DNA from: Nocardioides stalactiti
GTDB taxonomy: Bacteria; Actinomycetota; Actinomycetes; Propionibacteriales; Nocardioidaceae
DNA: 64,000 nt
Direction of reading: 5' to 3'
Assembly: GCF_014180715.1 (NCBI RefSeq)
Contig: NZ_JACEFC010000002.1
Coordinates: forward strand, 1-64,000
The notes beneath the pieces were generated by a model. That model searched no databases, was not told the DNA's origin, and worked only from the letters and a program-made list of their open reading frames with translations. Positions 48,743-54,519 of this stretch are shown in pieces (position 1 is the first letter of the stretch; each line of letters begins with the position of its first letter). Both the position numbers and the translations under genes were made by a program.

Positions 48743-48758
48743 ACCTAGAATCGTGCCC

Positions 48759-49652
48759 ATGAGCGAGCAGCACGAACTGGGCACCACGAAGGTCAAGCGC
48801 GGCATGGCCGAGATGCTCAAGGGCGGCGTGATCATGGACGTGGTCAACGCCGAGCAGGCCAAGATCGCCGAGGACGCCGGTGCCGTCGCCGTGATGGCGC
48901 TGGAGCGCGTTCCCGCCGACATCCGCGCCCAGGGCGGCGTCTCGCGGATGAGCGACCCGGACATGATCGACGGCATCATCGAGGCCGTCTCGATCCCGGT
49001 GATGGCCAAGGCGCGCATCGGCCACTTCGCCGAGGCGCAGGTCCTGCAGAGCCTCGGTGTCGACTACATCGACGAGTCCGAGGTCCTCACCCCGGCCGAC
49101 TACGCGAACCACATCGACAAGTGGAGCTTCACGGTTCCCTTCGTCTGCGGCGCGACCAACCTGGGTGAGGCGCTGCGGCGGATCACCGAGGGTGCGGCGA
49201 TGATCCGCTCCAAGGGCGAGGCCGGCACCGGTGACGTCTCCAACGCGGTCACCCACATGCGGACCATCCGCGGCGAGCTCCGTCGCCTCGGCTCGCTGGC
49301 CGACGACGAGCTCTTCGTCGCGGCCAAGGAGCTGCAGGCGCCGTACGACCTCGTCGTCGAGGTCGCCCGCACCGGCAAGCTGCCCGTGGTCCTCTTCACC
49401 GCCGGCGGCATCGCGACGCCCGCCGACGCGGCGATGATGATGCAGCTCGGCGCCGAGGGCGTCTTCGTGGGCTCGGGCATCTTCAAGTCCGGCAACCCTG
49501 CACAGCGCGCCGAGGCGATCGTCAAGGCGACGACGTTCTTCGACGACCCCGACGTGGTCGCCAAGGTCTCCCGCGGTCTCGGCGAGGCCATGGTCGGCAT
49601 CAACGTCGAGGACATCCCTCAGCCGCACCGGCTCGCCGAGCGCGGCTGGTAG
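48759..49652 (+). CDS. pdxS: pyridoxal 5'-phosphate synthase, lyase subunit PdxS
   Basis: 297-aa (beta/alpha)8-barrel that forms PLP from ribose 5-phosphate, glyceraldehyde 3-phosphate and ammonia. The two catalytic lysines are in [17 protein letters not shown] and [29 protein letters not shown]-type and [14 protein letters not shown] phosphate motifs are present. Ammonia comes from the glutaminase PdxT, whose gene is usually adjacent but here lies 4.3 kb away beyond an inserted cassette on both strands. Confidence 0.97.
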
Positions 49653-49665
49653 TCCCCGGGGCGAC

Positions 49666-50445
49666 CTAGCGCCGGAGCTCCGGGCAGGCGAGCTCGGCGC
49701 GGTCGTCCGCGTCGAGCGCGTCGTAGTCGCCGACCAGCTCGAGGACCGAGCCGTCGACCGGGTCGAGGTAGACGCGGAAGTCGTAGGGGTCCTGCGCCCA
49801 CCAGAGCTGGGGCTCACCTCCGTCGGACACGGTGTACTCACCGGACGGCGGGCCCATCAGCGCGACGATCTCGTCGCGGGACTGGTCGGGTGAGAGCAGG
49901 CACCACGCATCGACCCAACGGGCCGCCTCATCGTCGCCCGCCCGGCTCTCGGTGGAGAACACCCGCCAGCGAGCGCGGTGATAGACCATGCGCACGGTGA
50001 CGTCGGCGGTGACGTCGGCGGTGACGTCGGGGTCGGCGGACGCCCTGAGACGGACAGCGAGCAGCGCGTCCTCCTCGGTCTGCTGGGTCACCTCGAGGTC
50101 GACGACATCGCTCGCGAAGCCAGGGTCCTCCCACAGCAGCGCCTCGAACCCCGCGCACGGGTCGCCCAGCTCGGCCCGGTCCACCAGGATCGCCTGGTAG
50201 CGCAGGTCGATGGTGAGCTCGGGCGCCTGGAGCGCGCATGCCGCCTCGGCGTCCTGAGCGGCCAGCGCGGCGAGCCAGGCACGATAGGCCGCCTCCGGTC
50301 CGTCCGGGACCTCCGGGCTGAGGGTCCCGACGACGTCGCGGCGCACCTCGCCCCGACTGGGCTCGGGATCGTCCCCGCAGGCGCTCAGGGTTGCGAGAAG
50401 GCTGCCGATCACCAACGTGGTGAGTCCTGCGCGCACGACCCGCAA
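49666..50445 (-). CDS. hypothetical lipoprotein
   Basis: 259-aa exported protein from TTG 50445. I chose this start because GAGGAGG lies 6 nt upstream and the resulting N-terminus (LRVVRAGLTTLVIGSLLATL then SACGDD) is an ideal lipoprotein signal with lipobox LSAC. The frame is open further to 50508. The mature part is acidic, with YRAWLAALAAQDAEAACALQ resembling NTF2-like domains in lipoproteins, and contains a DVTADVTADVT repeat encoded by three 12-nt copies (49996-50031). Function unknown. It stands convergent to pdxS and divergent from the SipW cassette. Confidence 0.8.
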   Translation of the reverse strand: MRVVRAGLTTLVIGSLLATLSACGDDPEPSRGEVRRDVVGTLSPEVPDGPEAAYRAWLAALAAQDAEAACALQAPELTIDLRYQAILVDRAELGDPCAGFEALLWEDPGFASDVVDLEVTQQTEEDALLAVRLRASADPDVTADVTADVTVRMVYHRARWRVFSTESRAGDDEAARWVDAWCLLSPDQSRDEIVALMGPPSGEYTVSDGGEPQLWWAQDPYDFRVYLDPVDGSVLELVGDYDALDADDRAELACPELRR

Positions 50446-50508
50446 GGCATTCCTCCTCAGAGTTGGATCCGCCGTTCCGAAGATTAAAGCGGGACGGTGG
50501 AGGACCAT

Positions 50509-50522
50509 CGTCCCAAGGGACG
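50509..50522. promoter_or_regulatory. inverted repeat upstream of the SipW cassette
   Basis: CGTCCC-AA-GGGACG is a perfect 6-bp inverted repeat 32 bp before the first cassette gene; an overlapping CCAAG (50513-50517) / CTTGG (50524-50528) offers an alternative fold. It could be an operator or a leader-RNA switch for the cassette. Confidence 0.4.
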
Positions 50523-50553
50523 TCTTGGGAGGGACGCCCCGGGAGGGAACATC

Positions 50554-51105
50554 ATGAACAAGTCAACGAAGGGCGCCCTGGCTGCCGGAGCAGCCGCGGT
50601 CCTCTTGGTCGGCGGTGCCGGGACGCTCGCGTTCTGGGCCGACGACGAGACCGTGCCCGGCGGCACCATCGACGCCGGCCACCTCGACCTGACCACCGAT
50701 GGCACCAACACCGGGTGCGGTGTCTGGGAGCTCGACTCGGGAGAGGCGGCGCCCGTCACCTGGAACGACGGCGACCCGCTCGTGCCCGGGGACGTTCTCG
50801 CCATGGAGTGCGCGTTCACGATCGACGCGCAGGGCAACCACCTGCGCGCCACCGTGTCGGCGTCCGCCCCCAACCTCACCGGCAGTCTCGCAGCGGGGCT
50901 CGACATCGATGCGGTCGGCCTGACCGTCAACAACGTCGCGGCCACGGAGTTCACCGAGGCCAACGACGGCCAGGCGCTCGGCGTGACCGTGACGGTGACC
51001 TTCACCGACCCCGGGAGCGTCGACAACACCTACAACGACCCGGCCACGGACGTCTCGGCAGTGCTCGACGACATCACCGTGACCGCCACCCAGGTCCACA
51101 GCTAG
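50554..51105 (+). CDS. exported protein with SipW-type alternate signal (RER_14450-like)
   Basis: 183-aa protein. The N-terminus KGALAAGAAAVLLVGGAGTL then AFWADDETV is the alternate signal typical of SipW substrates, where the hydrophobic stretch ends in aromatic-x-DD and is cleaved by an archaeal/ER-type signal peptidase. The following GGTIDAGHLDL is the start of a TasA/camelysin-like beta-sandwich. It most resembles the actinobacterial RER_14450-type exported proteins. It is followed 4 bp later by its likely processing enzyme, so it may be a surface or matrix protein. Function not demonstrated. Confidence 0.85.
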   Translation: MNKSTKGALAAGAAAVLLVGGAGTLAFWADDETVPGGTIDAGHLDLTTDGTNTGCGVWELDSGEAAPVTWNDGDPLVPGDVLAMECAFTIDAQGNHLRATVSASAPNLTGSLAAGLDIDAVGLTVNNVAATEFTEANDGQALGVTVTVTFTDPGSVDNTYNDPATDVSAVLDDITVTATQVHS

Positions 51106-51109
51106 CGTC

Positions 51110-51673
51110 ATGCGCGCGGCGCTCGGGTTCGGGCGCCTCGTGCTGGCCTGGTGCGTGATCCTCGGCGCCGGCAGCGTGCTGCTGGCGGCCGTGGTCGTGC
51201 CGCGGCTCGTGGGGGCGACGACGTACGACGTACAGACCGGGTCCATGCGGCCCGGCCTGCCTCCCGGCACGCTCGTCGTGGTGCGTCCGGTCGAGCCCGA
51301 GCAGATCGGGATCGGGACGGTGGTCACCTACCAGCTCGTGTCGGGGGAACCGACGGTCGTCACCCACCGGGTGGTCGAGGTCGGCGTCAACCACGTGACC
51401 GGCGACCGGCTGTTCCGGACCCAGGGCGACGCCAACGACGCGGTCGACCCGGGGCTCGTCCGACCGGTCCAGGTGCGGGGCGAGGTCTGGTACGCGGTGC
51501 CGTACGTCGGACGGCTGAACGACCTGTTCGCCGGTCGGCCAGGCCTTCCGCTGCTCGCCGTGGTCGCCGGGCTGCTGGGCTACGCGGCCTGGATGTTCGG
51601 GGGAGCAGCGCGCGAGCGGCGCACGCGCCGCGCGCCCGTCACCGCGGAGGAAGGGGAGCTGGTCGGGTCATGA
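51110..51673 (+). CDS. signal peptidase I, archaeal/ER (SipW) type
   Basis: 187-aa membrane protease. TM1 is about 8-32; the catalytic serine is S45 in DVQTGSMRPGLPPG. The general base is H86 in VVTHRVVEVG, where bacterial-type enzymes have lysine, and the acidic residues are in FRTQGDANDAVDP. A second TM is about 150-172. A Ser-His dyad marks the SipW class, which processes TasA/camelysin-like substrates. It is encoded directly after one substrate and overlaps the next gene (ATGA). Confidence 0.92.
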   Translation: MRAALGFGRLVLAWCVILGAGSVLLAAVVVPRLVGATTYDVQTGSMRPGLPPGTLVVVRPVEPEQIGIGTVVTYQLVSGEPTVVTHRVVEVGVNHVTGDRLFRTQGDANDAVDPGLVRPVQVRGEVWYAVPYVGRLNDLFAGRPGLPLLAVVAGLLGYAAWMFGGAARERRTRRAPVTAEEGELVGS

Positions 51674-52302
51674 AGGTCCGTTGGTTGGTGCTCGCAGCAG
51701 TCCTGGCACCGGTCGCGTTCGCGACCGCGGCCGGTCCTGCGCGCGCCGCCGACGACCCGATCGCGCTCAGCGCCGACGGCGTGACCTGGGGCCATGCCCT
51801 CTCCTCCCCGCTGTTCACCCGCGACCACGTCTGGGTGCCGGGTGACGTCCAGACCCGCTCGTTCTACGTCCGCAACGACGGCCCGACAGGCGCCCGGCTC
51901 ACCGTCGCCCTCCAGGCCGGGGACAGCGACCGCCTCCTCTCCGACCGCGACCTGGCGCTGTCGGCGCGGGCAGCGACCGGTCCGTGGACCCGGGTCCGCA
52001 ACGGCGGTGACGTCGCGCCGCTCGTGCGCGACGCCCTCGAGCAGGGCGAGTCGGTCCGGGTCGACCTGCGGGCCTCGTTCCGCTGGCGGTCGACGAACGA
52101 GTCGATGGTCGACCAGGTGCCGCTCCAGGTCGTGGTGGTGCTGCGTCAGGACGGCCACCTCACCGACGACGAGACCGACGTGACCCTGCCCGGTGTGGGC
52201 AGCACCGTGCCGTGGTGGCTGCTCACCGTCGCGGTCTGCTGCCTGCTCGGCGGCGTCACGATCGTGCTCATCTCCCGGCACCGGGAGGAGCGCCATGAGT
52301 AG
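51670..52302 (+). CDS. exported, membrane-anchored protein of unknown function
   Basis: 210-aa protein with an ordinary Sec signal (VLAAVLAPVAFATAAGPARA, cleavage after ARA). The exposed domain, about residues 28-172, contains HVWVPGDVQTRSFYVRNDGP, a DUF11-like or immunoglobulin-like strand pattern. A C-terminal TM (about 177-201) ends in a basic tail RHREERHE. LPGVG just before the TM resembles an altered sortase signal. It sits between SipW and a SipW-type substrate gene, with overlaps on both sides, so it may anchor or organise the processed proteins. No known family recognised. Confidence 0.72.
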   Translation: MKVRWLVLAAVLAPVAFATAAGPARAADDPIALSADGVTWGHALSSPLFTRDHVWVPGDVQTRSFYVRNDGPTGARLTVALQAGDSDRLLSDRDLALSARAATGPWTRVRNGGDVAPLVRDALEQGESVRVDLRASFRWRSTNESMVDQVPLQVVVVLRQDGHLTDDETDVTLPGVGSTVPWWLLTVAVCCLLGGVTIVLISRHREERHE

Positions 52303-52900
52303 GCACGTCGCGGCCCGTCGTACCGGTCGGATCAGGGCGGTCCTCTGCCTCGCGCTGCTGGCAGGCCTCGGGGCCACGACCAGCCTCGCCTACTGGACCG
52401 ACGACGTGGCGATCTCGGGATCGACCTTCACCGCGGCGACGCTGGACCTCGAGGTCGACAACGCCGACCCGTTCGCAGGAGCGACCGTGCTGTCGATGAC
52501 CGACATGGTCCCGGGAGCGACCTCGGCGCAGGTGCTCACGATCAAGAACGCCGGCACCGCACCGCTGAAGTACACCCTGGTCGGCGGGCTGACCGGCGGT
52601 GGGGCTTCGGCCTACAACACCGCGGCCGCGCTCCGGCTCACCGTCGTCCTCAACGGCACCAAGTCCGGGTCCGGCAACACCAGCACGTGCACCGGTGGCA
52701 CCGTCCTCTACGGACCGACCGCGCTGACCAGCACGACGACCACCTCGATCCTCGCCAAGCGCCCGGCATCCCCGCTCGCGACCACGGCCACGGAGTCCCT
52801 GTGCTTCCAGGTCACCTTCGACTCCGCCGCCCCGTCCTCGCTCCAGGGCGCCTCCGTCAACGCGGTGTTCACCGCGACCGGCACCTCGGACACCTCGTGA
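52295..52900 (+). CDS. TasA/camelysin-like exported protein with SipW-type signal
   Basis: 201-aa protein. The signal segment AVLCLALLAGLGATTSLAYW is followed by TDDVAISGSTFTAATLDLEV, the TasA/camelysin motif (aromatic-x-DD, then S-TF-A-TLDL). The rest is a beta-rich Ser/Thr/Ala domain (PLKYTLVGGLTGGG) with two cysteines (STCTGG, SLCFQV) likely in a disulfide. Related proteins form fibres or surface layers in other Gram-positives. It overlaps the preceding gene by 8 nt and the following fusion gene by 4 nt (GTGA). Confidence 0.85.
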   Translation: MSRHVAARRTGRIRAVLCLALLAGLGATTSLAYWTDDVAISGSTFTAATLDLEVDNADPFAGATVLSMTDMVPGATSAQVLTIKNAGTAPLKYTLVGGLTGGGASAYNTAAALRLTVVLNGTKSGSGNTSTCTGGTVLYGPTALTSTTTTSILAKRPASPLATTATESLCFQVTFDSAAPSSLQGASVNAVFTATGTSDTS

Positions 52901-53898
52901 GCAGGCTGCGCAGCATCGCCGGTCTCGCCCGCGACCTCCTGCTCTCGGCCGGCGCGGCGCTCGGGCTGCTCGTCCTCGTCGCGATGGTCGTGGGACTCGC
53001 CGTCGGAGTGCGGCCCGTGGTCATCACCTCCGGGTCGATGGAGCCGTCGATCGGGACCGGCGCGCTCGTCCTGTCCCGGACGGTGCCCGCCGGCGACGTC
53101 GACGTCGGCGACGTGGTCACCGTCCGTTCGCCGACCGGCTCCCGGGTCACCCACCGCGTGGTCGACGTCGACCGCGACGGCGGGCTCGTCGTGCTGCGGC
53201 TCAAGGGCGACGCCAACGCGGGCGCGGACCCGATGGGCTATCCCGCGAGCGAGGTCGGCGAGGCCGTGGTCCACGTGCCCTACGTCGGATACGCGTTGAT
53301 GGCGGTCCGGACACCCGTCGGGCTGGTGGTGCTCGGCGCGCTCGTCATGCTGCTCGTGCTCGTGGCCGTGCGGGGGAGCGCCGGTCGTCGGGAGCCGAAG
53401 CGGGGCAGGCACGCCGGCGGAACGCCCAGGGGCCGGTCTTCTGGGCACTCTTCTGGGCACTCTTCTGGACACCGCGCAGCGCACGGTGCGCGGCGCCGTG
53501 CGCGTGGTCGTCGTACGGCGGTCGCGGCAGCGACAGCCGCGGTCGTGGCTGCGACGCCGGGCGTCGCCGACGCGGCGCCGTGGACCGACGACGTCGCGGT
53601 GAGCGGGACGTCGTTCTCCGCCTACACCCTCCCCGCGCCGACGCTCAGCTGCGGAGGGCTCGGCGTGCTGTCGGTGACCTTCAACTGGACCGCTGTCGCG
53701 GGTGCGACCGGCTACGAGCTGACGGCCGGCGGGACGACGTACCCCGTCCAGGCGACGACCAGCAGGACGATCGTCGCCGCGATCACCGGTGGGACCGCCA
53801 CGGTCCGCGCGGTGCGGGACTTCGGTTCGACGACCTGGACGTCCGTCGCCTCCAACCAGCGCACCTACACGGTTGCGGTGGTCAGTCTCTGCTCCTGA
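52897..53898 (+). CDS. fusion of SipW-type signal peptidase and SipW-type substrate domain
   Basis: 333-aa protein in one uninterrupted frame. Residues 1-160 are a complete archaeal/ER-type signal peptidase: TM about 16-38, S47 in VITSGSMEPSIGTG, H86 in RVTHRVVDVD, D105 in RLKGDANAGADP and a second TM about 138-158. A basic linker (161-205) includes SSGH repeated three times. Residues 206-333 start with a new hydrophobic stretch (TAVAAATAAVVAATPGVADA), then APWTDDVAVSGTSFSAYTL, matching the substrate motif of the previous gene, and a fibronectin-like domain (SVTFNWTAVAGATGYELTAG). I infer that the enzyme may cleave its own tail. The peptidase call is sure; the fusion is seen directly; its purpose is inference. 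Confidence 0.88.
   Translation: MSRLRSIAGLARDLLLSAGAALGLLVLVAMVVGLAVGVRPVVITSGSMEPSIGTGALVLSRTVPAGDVDVGDVVTVRSPTGSRVTHRVVDVDRDGGLVVLRLKGDANAGADPMGYPASEVGEAVVHVPYVGYALMAVRTPVGLVVLGALVMLLVLVAVRGSAGRREPKRGRHAGGTPRGRSSGHSSGHSSGHRAAHGARRRARGRRTAVAAATAAVVAATPGVADAAPWTDDVAVSGTSFSAYTLPAPTLSCGGLGVLSVTFNWTAVAGATGYELTAGGTTYPVQATTSRTIVAAITGGTATVRAVRDFGSTTWTSVASNQRTYTVAVVSLCS
53437..53472 (+). repeat. 12-nt tandem repeat in the fusion linker
   Basis: Three units of TCTTCTGGGCAC (53437-53448, 53449-53460) and TCTTCTGGACAC (53461-53472) encode SSGH three times. They use TCT, a rare codon in this genome, which suggests recent slippage expansion. Length variation between strains would change the linker without breaking the frame. 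Confidence 0.8.
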
Positions 53899-53922
53899 GG
53901 ACGCGACGACTAACCTCCTCCC

Positions 53923-54519
53923 GTGCCTCGTCCCGTGCCTCGTCCCGTGCCGGTGATCGGTGTCTTCGCGCTCCAGGGCGACGTCCGCGAGCACCTCGCG
54001 ACGCTCACGGAGCTCGGTGTGGAAGCGATCCCGGTCCGGCGCCCGGTCGAGCTGGAGCGCTGCGACGGCCTGGTGCTGCCGGGCGGCGAGTCCACCACCA
54101 TGGCCAAGCTGGCCCGCACCTTCGAGCTGCTCGAGCCGCTGCGGGAGCGGGTGCGCGCGGGCATGCCGACCTTCGGCACCTGCGCCGGCATGATCCTGCT
54201 CGCCGACCGGATCCTCGACGGGGCGGTCGGCCAGGAGACCATCGGCGGGCTCGACGTGACCGTGCGGCGCAACGCGTTCGGCCGGCAGGTCGACTCCTTC
54301 GAGGCGGACCTCGACGTGCGCGGTCTCGACGCACCCGTCCACGCCGTGTTCATCCGCGCGCCGTGGGTGGAGGAGGTCGGTGCCGACGTCGAGGTGCTCG
54401 CCGAGGCCGAGGGGCATCCGGTCGCCGTACGGCAGGGGCACCTGATGGCCACGTCGTTCCACCCCGAGGTCGCGGACGACGGTCGCATCCACCGGCTCTT
54501 CCTGGACCTGGTGGGCTAG
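53923..54519 (+). CDS. pdxT: pyridoxal 5'-phosphate synthase, glutaminase subunit PdxT
   Basis: 198 aa from GTG 53923. Class I glutamine amidotransferase giving ammonia to Pdx[31 protein letters not shown], the nucleophile Cys in [14 protein letters not shown], and the His-Glu pair in [12 protein letters not shown] are all present. The start is uncertain: a 12-nt repeat (53921-53951) supplies in-frame GTG codons at 53923, 53935 and 53947, and GTG 53953 begins the conserved part. It is separated from pdxS by the SipW cassette. Confidence 0.95.

Follow-up and report, generated by a model that had tools for sequence, protein, structure and literature searches.

One open reading frame in the window, the 64,000-nucleotide stretch of Nocardioides stalactiti DNA analyzed here, encodes a putative ER/archaeal-type (S26B) signal peptidase that continues in the same chain into a candidate substrate of the SipW type. 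Both assignments are well supported from sequence, the peptidase activity being predicted. An earlier note on this DNA had proposed such an in-frame fusion of peptidase and substrate, and the proposal now stands on 22 conserved proteins, a cleavage site located by an independent profile, stand-alone C-terminal halves in four genomes and a second fusion family. The components of the fusion are already known. However, a search of open-access papers turned up no account of a signal peptidase, whether SipW-type or other, that is fused to its own substrate.

Results

Structure of the fusion gene

The fusion gene (52897-53898, forward strand) begins with GTG and reads through 333 codons without interruption. 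Between its start codon and the end of the substrate gene upstream (52295-52900), whose stop codon it shares, there is a 4-nt overlap (GTGA). The earlier note had read from this frame a complete Ser/His signal peptidase with residues S47, H86 and D105, two transmembrane segments (TM1 and TM2), a basic linker with SSGH repeats and a third hydrophobic stretch (helix 3), and all of these are present in the intact frame (Table 1). The TIGR02228 model matches residues 20-156 at 86.3 bits against a cut-off of 51.85, which places the peptidase half in the ER/archaeal-type signal peptidase I group (S26B, SipW group), and Pfam S26 scores slightly over its own cut-off. The catalytic residues follow in the order Ser, His (not Lys) and Asp. 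An alignment of 21 fusions (alignment A3) shows S47, M48, H86, R87, G104, D105 and N107 to be invariant, together with A227 and D231 after helix 3. The window protein scored 64.5 bits with NF046067, the Bacillus SipW equivalog, below the cut-off of 190. By these models the fusion peptidase is SipW-like and is not the Bacillus equivalog. An AlphaFold prediction with five sequences, examined for docking at Ser47, reached a mean pLDDT of 48.5 and is usable for the three helices and the peptidase beta-domain alone; with so shallow an alignment the prediction was too weak, and placement of the site at Ser47 was not seen in it.

Table 1. Coordinates of the operon genes and of the parts of the fusion gene in the window.
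Feature	Position	Strand	Basis
First SipW-type substrate of the operon	50554..51105	+	TIGR04089 130.3 bits, TIGR04088 30.9 bits
SPase1, second, unfused SipW-type signal peptidase	51110..51673	+	TIGR02228 63.6 bits; all-unfused clade
Secreted protein with LAVTG-like sortase-signal end	51670..52302	+	NF058582 24.7 bits, just under cut-off 27
Separate SipW-type (camelysin/TasA-like) substrate, directly upstream of the fusion, 4-nt overlap	52295..52900	+	TIGR04088 21.9 bits, PF12389 28.5 bits, each exceeding its cut-off
Fusion gene: putative SipW/ER-type signal peptidase, basic linker, helix 3, SipW-type cleavage region, C-terminal beta-domain	52897..53898	+	Open frame; TIGR02228 86.3 bits; 22 conserved fusions
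Stretch with catalytic codons S47 (53035-53037), H86 (53152-53154) and D105 (53209-53211)	53035..53211	+	Invariant in alignment A3
TM2, about residues 142-160	53320..53376	+	Hydrophobicity; AlphaFold model helix 140-162
Basic linker, about residues 161-205	53377..53511	+	15 K/R versus 1 D/E in 49-residue loop
Three tandem 12-bp units (TCTTCTGGGCAC) coding SSGH x3, within the linker	53437..53472	+	Sequence; third-position GC 0.53
Helix 3, signal-peptide-like, about residues 206-223	53512..53565	+	Hydrophobicity like substrates' signal peptides; low-confidence model helix 196-218
SipW-type cleavage region A224-D-A-A-P-W-T-D231	53566..53589	+	A227, D231 invariant (alignment A3); profile score
Predicted exported C-terminal domain, beta-rich; FnIII/Ig-like weakly supported	53578..53895	+	fn3 in 2/10 relatives; model pLDDT 52.6

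Cleavage region and substrate-site profile

The motif APWTDDVAVSGTSF, in a cleavage region of the form A-[x]-[WF]-T-D, follows helix 3 of the fusion and the upstream neighboring substrate carries AYWTDDVAISGSTF, so the shared cleavage-region motif described in the earlier note was recovered. A position profile was trained on 39 separate substrates of related operons, with the fusions and the stand-alone C-terminal halves excluded. The training pattern demanded Ala at P1 and W or F at P2', so the make-up of those two positions follows from the selection; A227 and D231, in contrast, are conserved in the alignment irrespective of this pattern. In the window protein the site after helix 3 scored 19.0 bits, the runner-up scored -5.1, and none of 200 shuffles scored as high. 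The top-scoring position lay directly after helix 3 in every one of the 22 fusions, with the smallest margin at L064 8271-9332 (4.3 versus 3.8), and a profile site above 3.5 was found in none of the 51 unfused peptidases. Thus, by site, all 22 fusions carry what marks a SipW-type substrate, a hydrophobic helix with a cleavage region of the kind found in the operon substrates.

Cleavage of the window protein would probably fall after A226 or A227. Ala occupies P1 of the fused site and an aromatic residue occupies P2' in 20 of 22 fusions; in the window protein and L036, if the cut falls at the A-x-A position, a Pro displaces the aromatic residue to P3'. Helix 3 resembles signal peptides and not TM2: its hydrophobicity is 1.93 versus 1.85 for the signal peptides of the substrates (p=0.12), and that of TM2 is higher at 2.45 (p=7e-6). 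With the TIGR04088 and TIGR04089 models, the window C-terminal half gave no match and its stand-alone homologues scored 11.8-14.9 bits, under the cut-off.

C-terminal domain

The earlier note had also described a fibronectin-like domain after the cleavage region, and the evidence for this part of its reading is weak. In the window protein, the C-terminal half has no Pfam match that passes its cut-off. The fn3 family (PF00041) matched two of ten related C-terminal domains, weakly (best E about 1e-3), and a low-confidence AlphaFold model (pLDDT 52.6) contains beta strands only. A profile search of the PDB with the C-terminal domains returned antibody and adnectin chains at a best E of 0.012, which is only a hint of a beta-sandwich. 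Some fusions end in a single small domain and others, at the far end of the range, in several Ig-like domains. The linker and the C-terminal domain diverge across the fusions, whereas the catalytic and site residues stay invariant.

Conservation and phylogeny of the fusion

The search for the same architecture, which the earlier note had suggested, covered relatives, the order and the class. It found 22 fusions in 19 genomes of Nocardioides, of a sister genus in the family and, in one case, of another family of the same order; for Nocardioides this is a minimum count. The carriers include a named N. immobilis contig, and some members of the sister genus have tandem copies of the operon. The loop between TM2 and helix 3, predicted to be cytoplasmic, has 4 to 72 residues and, in most fusions, a basic composition. 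A maximum-likelihood tree, built from 78 peptidase domains, groups the 22 fusions in one clade (100/99) that contains no unfused member; a peptidase half was never found there without its substrate half. The SPase1 clade is wholly unfused, and the starred branches of this tree require at least three changes of fused state overall.

The C-terminal half occurs as a separate gene in four genomes: G016 (L047 5458-5883), G075 (L063 5655-6050), G061 (L068 4938-5405) and G062 (L151 4074-4883). These genes stand at the end of the same type of operon, and pdxT is next in G075, G061 and G062. Each begins with the equivalent of helix 3 as its N-terminal signal peptide, and thus the helix-3 segment can serve as a signal peptide. 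The four genomes, of which G016 is only 87% complete, yielded no peptidase of the fused clade; their best peptidase matches scored 65-88 bits, whereas the true fusions of G060 and G066 scored 286 and 340. A genome of another family belongs to the all-fused clade, and for this reason the stand-alone state probably reflects a later loss of the peptidase half. SPase1 presumably cleaves the stand-alone forms.

A second fusion family

A distinct peptidase clade (L026, L027, L111, L112 and L120; L027 was assigned by alignment) has a third hydrophobic helix followed by a LamG domain or Ig repeats, and at all five loci a separate substrate gene lies directly upstream. A second profile was built from these five neighboring substrates. 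It placed a site after helix 3 in five of five LamG/Ig fusions, and none of 200 shuffles scored as high. On its own fusions the first profile has a mean of 13.2, and on the LamG/Ig group it drops to between -5 and -20; the second profile scores its own fusions at 16-22 and the first group at -8.2 on average. Neither profile recognizes the other group, so in each family the fused site is like those of the substrates that go with the same peptidase family. The fusion in the LamG/Ig peptidase family arose separately from the first.

Other arrangements were also observed. Signal peptidases of other actinobacterial families are fused to DUF5305 (L104 818-2323 and L107 5532-7322) beside small secreted proteins, and the profile did not find a SipW-type site in these two fusions. 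Related peptidase and LamG genes are adjacent and overlapping, and unfused, in G191 (L110 1880-2467 and 997-1899), and a related peptidase gene and a LamG-domain gene are adjacent and unfused at L109 (4861-5460 and 3960-4832).

Operon and surroundings

The SipW-type surface operon consists, in order, of the TIGR04089 substrate, SPase1, the sortase-signal-like protein, the TIGR04088 substrate and the fusion. It lies between two genes that we take, from their translated sequences and general knowledge, to be pdxS and pdxT (window 48756-54519), a position common to most related loci. The fusions mostly end the operon at this position, with L039 and L040 as exceptions. The protein with the sortase-signal end (51670-52302) is missing from several related operons, and the operon stands twice in tandem between pdxS and pdxT at L064, L066 and L069. 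In G060 (L101 6411-10033) the interval from the fusion to pdxT contains three additional genes for secreted-looking proteins and one more peptidase-like gene. In the window, a short tandem repeat (CGTCCCGTGCCT, 53922-53950) surrounds possible pdxT start codons. The SPase1 of one subclade (L041, L042, L045 and L101) has a C-terminal extension of 68-87 residues, which in L041 holds an extra hydrophobic helix. Two more camelysin/TasA-like proteins are encoded elsewhere in the genome of the window, at G000:C225:11249-12399 (L001, L030) and G000:C6:6190-6384 (L003), and one of the two adjoins a plain SipW-type peptidase.

Discussion

We favor, with modest confidence, a reading in which the peptidase carries one of the substrates it would act on, cleaves after helix 3 on its own chain or on another copy, and releases an adhesin-like domain. 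In the predicted topology, TM1 and TM2 would hold the catalytic Ser-His domain on the outer side of the cytoplasmic membrane, the linker with its basic residues would remain on the inner side, and helix 3 would cross outward again as an internal signal peptide. The end of helix 3 presents a SipW-type site, with Ala at P1, an aromatic residue at P2' or P3' and Asp at or next to P4'. A peptidase domain of the same chain or of another copy would then cut after helix 3 and free the C-terminal beta-domain, which would probably join the TasA-like surface layer or fibre of the operon's two other substrates. The fusion would ensure that every exported domain comes with a peptidase able to release it. 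The parts of this reading differ in strength. That the junction is cleaved is quite probable; that the fused peptidase rather than SPase1 cleaves it is slightly favored; and a role of the C-terminal domain in a surface layer has about an even chance. Three observations count against the reading: the window C-terminal half falls short of TIGR04088 and TIGR04089, a Pro moves the aromatic residue in the window protein and L036, and the structural model is too weak to place the site at Ser47. The earlier note had offered self-cleavage in cis, release of a surface domain, or a tethered substrate that regulates the enzyme as consequences of the fusion. Among these three, release of the C-terminal domain is favored because the C-terminal half elsewhere is an ordinary protein bearing a signal peptide.

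The evidence also bears on several other explanations. The C-terminal half may be a genuine substrate that SPase1 cuts in trans, with the fused peptidase mainly serving the operon's other substrates and the fusion fixing co-expression and stoichiometry. SPase1 is encoded in the same operon, and the four stand-alone genomes have SPase1 and no peptidase of the fused clade; since SPase1 must act in those genomes, if the C-terminal half is cleaved there, it could also cleave the fusion. However, the fused peptidase never occurs without the substrate half (22 of 22), while the other substrates persist without the fused peptidase, which suggests that its main client is its own C-terminal half. In addition, in both fusion families the fused sites are of the type that belongs to their own peptidase family. 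We regard cleavage of the fusion in trans by SPase1 as unlikely. It is quite unlikely that the junction stays uncut, so that helix 3 tethers the C-terminal domain as an assembly platform or chaperone for fibre proteins, or that the site acts as a competitor restraining the enzyme. In favor of an uncut junction, the fusion is maintained as one clade in which the domains vary widely and the anchor remains, and in two members a Pro stands beside the Ala at the site, Pro at P1' being disfavored by signal peptidases (PMC10269814). Yet Ala, Asp and the aromatic residue are conserved as in cleaved substrates, the hydrophobicity of helix 3 is that of a signal peptide, and the stand-alone versions use the same segment as an N-terminal signal peptide.

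An artefact, either the joining of two genes by an error of sequencing or assembly or the making of two separate products through an internal start, is extremely improbable. The linker does contain the 12-bp tandem repeat and low third-position GC, and an in-frame GTG or ATG occurs between TM2 and helix 3 in several homologues. However, the window gene and several other homologues have no in-frame ATG, GTG or TTG between TM2 and helix 3, and the in-frame layout recurs throughout the fusions with differing linkers. Third-codon-position GC is 0.90-1.0 on either side of the junction in one frame, as in coding sequence, and falls to 0.53 only in the repeat-bearing linker. The earlier note had named a stop or frameshift between the halves, or homologues whose halves are always separate genes, as findings that would overturn the fusion. 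The former is very unlikely, and the conserved homologues exclude the latter. We rejected a frameshift or assembly error on the strength of the conserved fusions and the in-frame codon statistics.

The favored reading, in which the fused peptidase releases its own C-terminal domain, can be compared with known systems. Like Bacillus SipW with TasA and TapA (tapA-sipW-tasA), B. cereus sipW-tasA-calY and C. perfringens sipW-bsaA, the operon encodes an ER-type Ser-His peptidase that would be dedicated to a few biofilm-matrix proteins encoded alongside, and the substrates share Ala at P1 and an aromatic residue just past the cut. In those systems, however, enzyme and substrates are separate genes, whereas the present operon has one substrate within the chain of the enzyme itself and encodes a second peptidase. 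LepB cleaves TasA, which has Phe at P2', only poorly, and the enzyme dedicated to TasA is SipW (PMC10269814); in C. perfringens the extracellular BsaA polymers need SipW (PMC7395162). The aromatic-bearing fused site would thus be of a kind that a LepB-type housekeeping enzyme handles poorly, as shown for TasA. The operon's other two substrates are members of the TIGR04088/TIGR04089 proteins, which have a signal-peptide-like helix and then A-x-[WF]-[TSN]-D. The fusion resembles them in this respect, but its site is inside the chain behind a peptidase and not N-terminal, and the window C-terminal half misses both models. The solved structures nearest to the peptidase half are SEC11A and SEC11C (E 4e-5), catalytic subunits of the eukaryotic signal peptidase complex. 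These belong to a multi-subunit complex and have no fused substrate. LexA and UmuD (family S24, same clan) carry a peptidase domain and their own cleavage site on one chain. They are soluble Ser-Lys enzymes that cut a linker, unlike the fusion, which is predicted to be a membrane Ser-His enzyme with a signal-peptide-like site.

More generally, the fusions may represent a type of self-releasing export protein, built of a peptidase, an internal signal peptide and a passenger processed in cis, that arose separately in at least two actinobacterial SipW-type branches, each with its own motifs; we put this forward tentatively, at somewhat less than an even chance. The usual encounter between a signal peptidase and its substrate is in trans, and how SipW-type enzymes choose their few substrates is poorly understood. 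A natural fusion supplies enzyme and substrate as one ready-made pair, useful for structural work, for example as an S47A trap, and for mapping specificity. Genes annotated merely as "signal peptidase I" may, as a caution, encode surface adhesin-like domains, and the fusion could help to find the surface structure built by these operons in Nocardioides.
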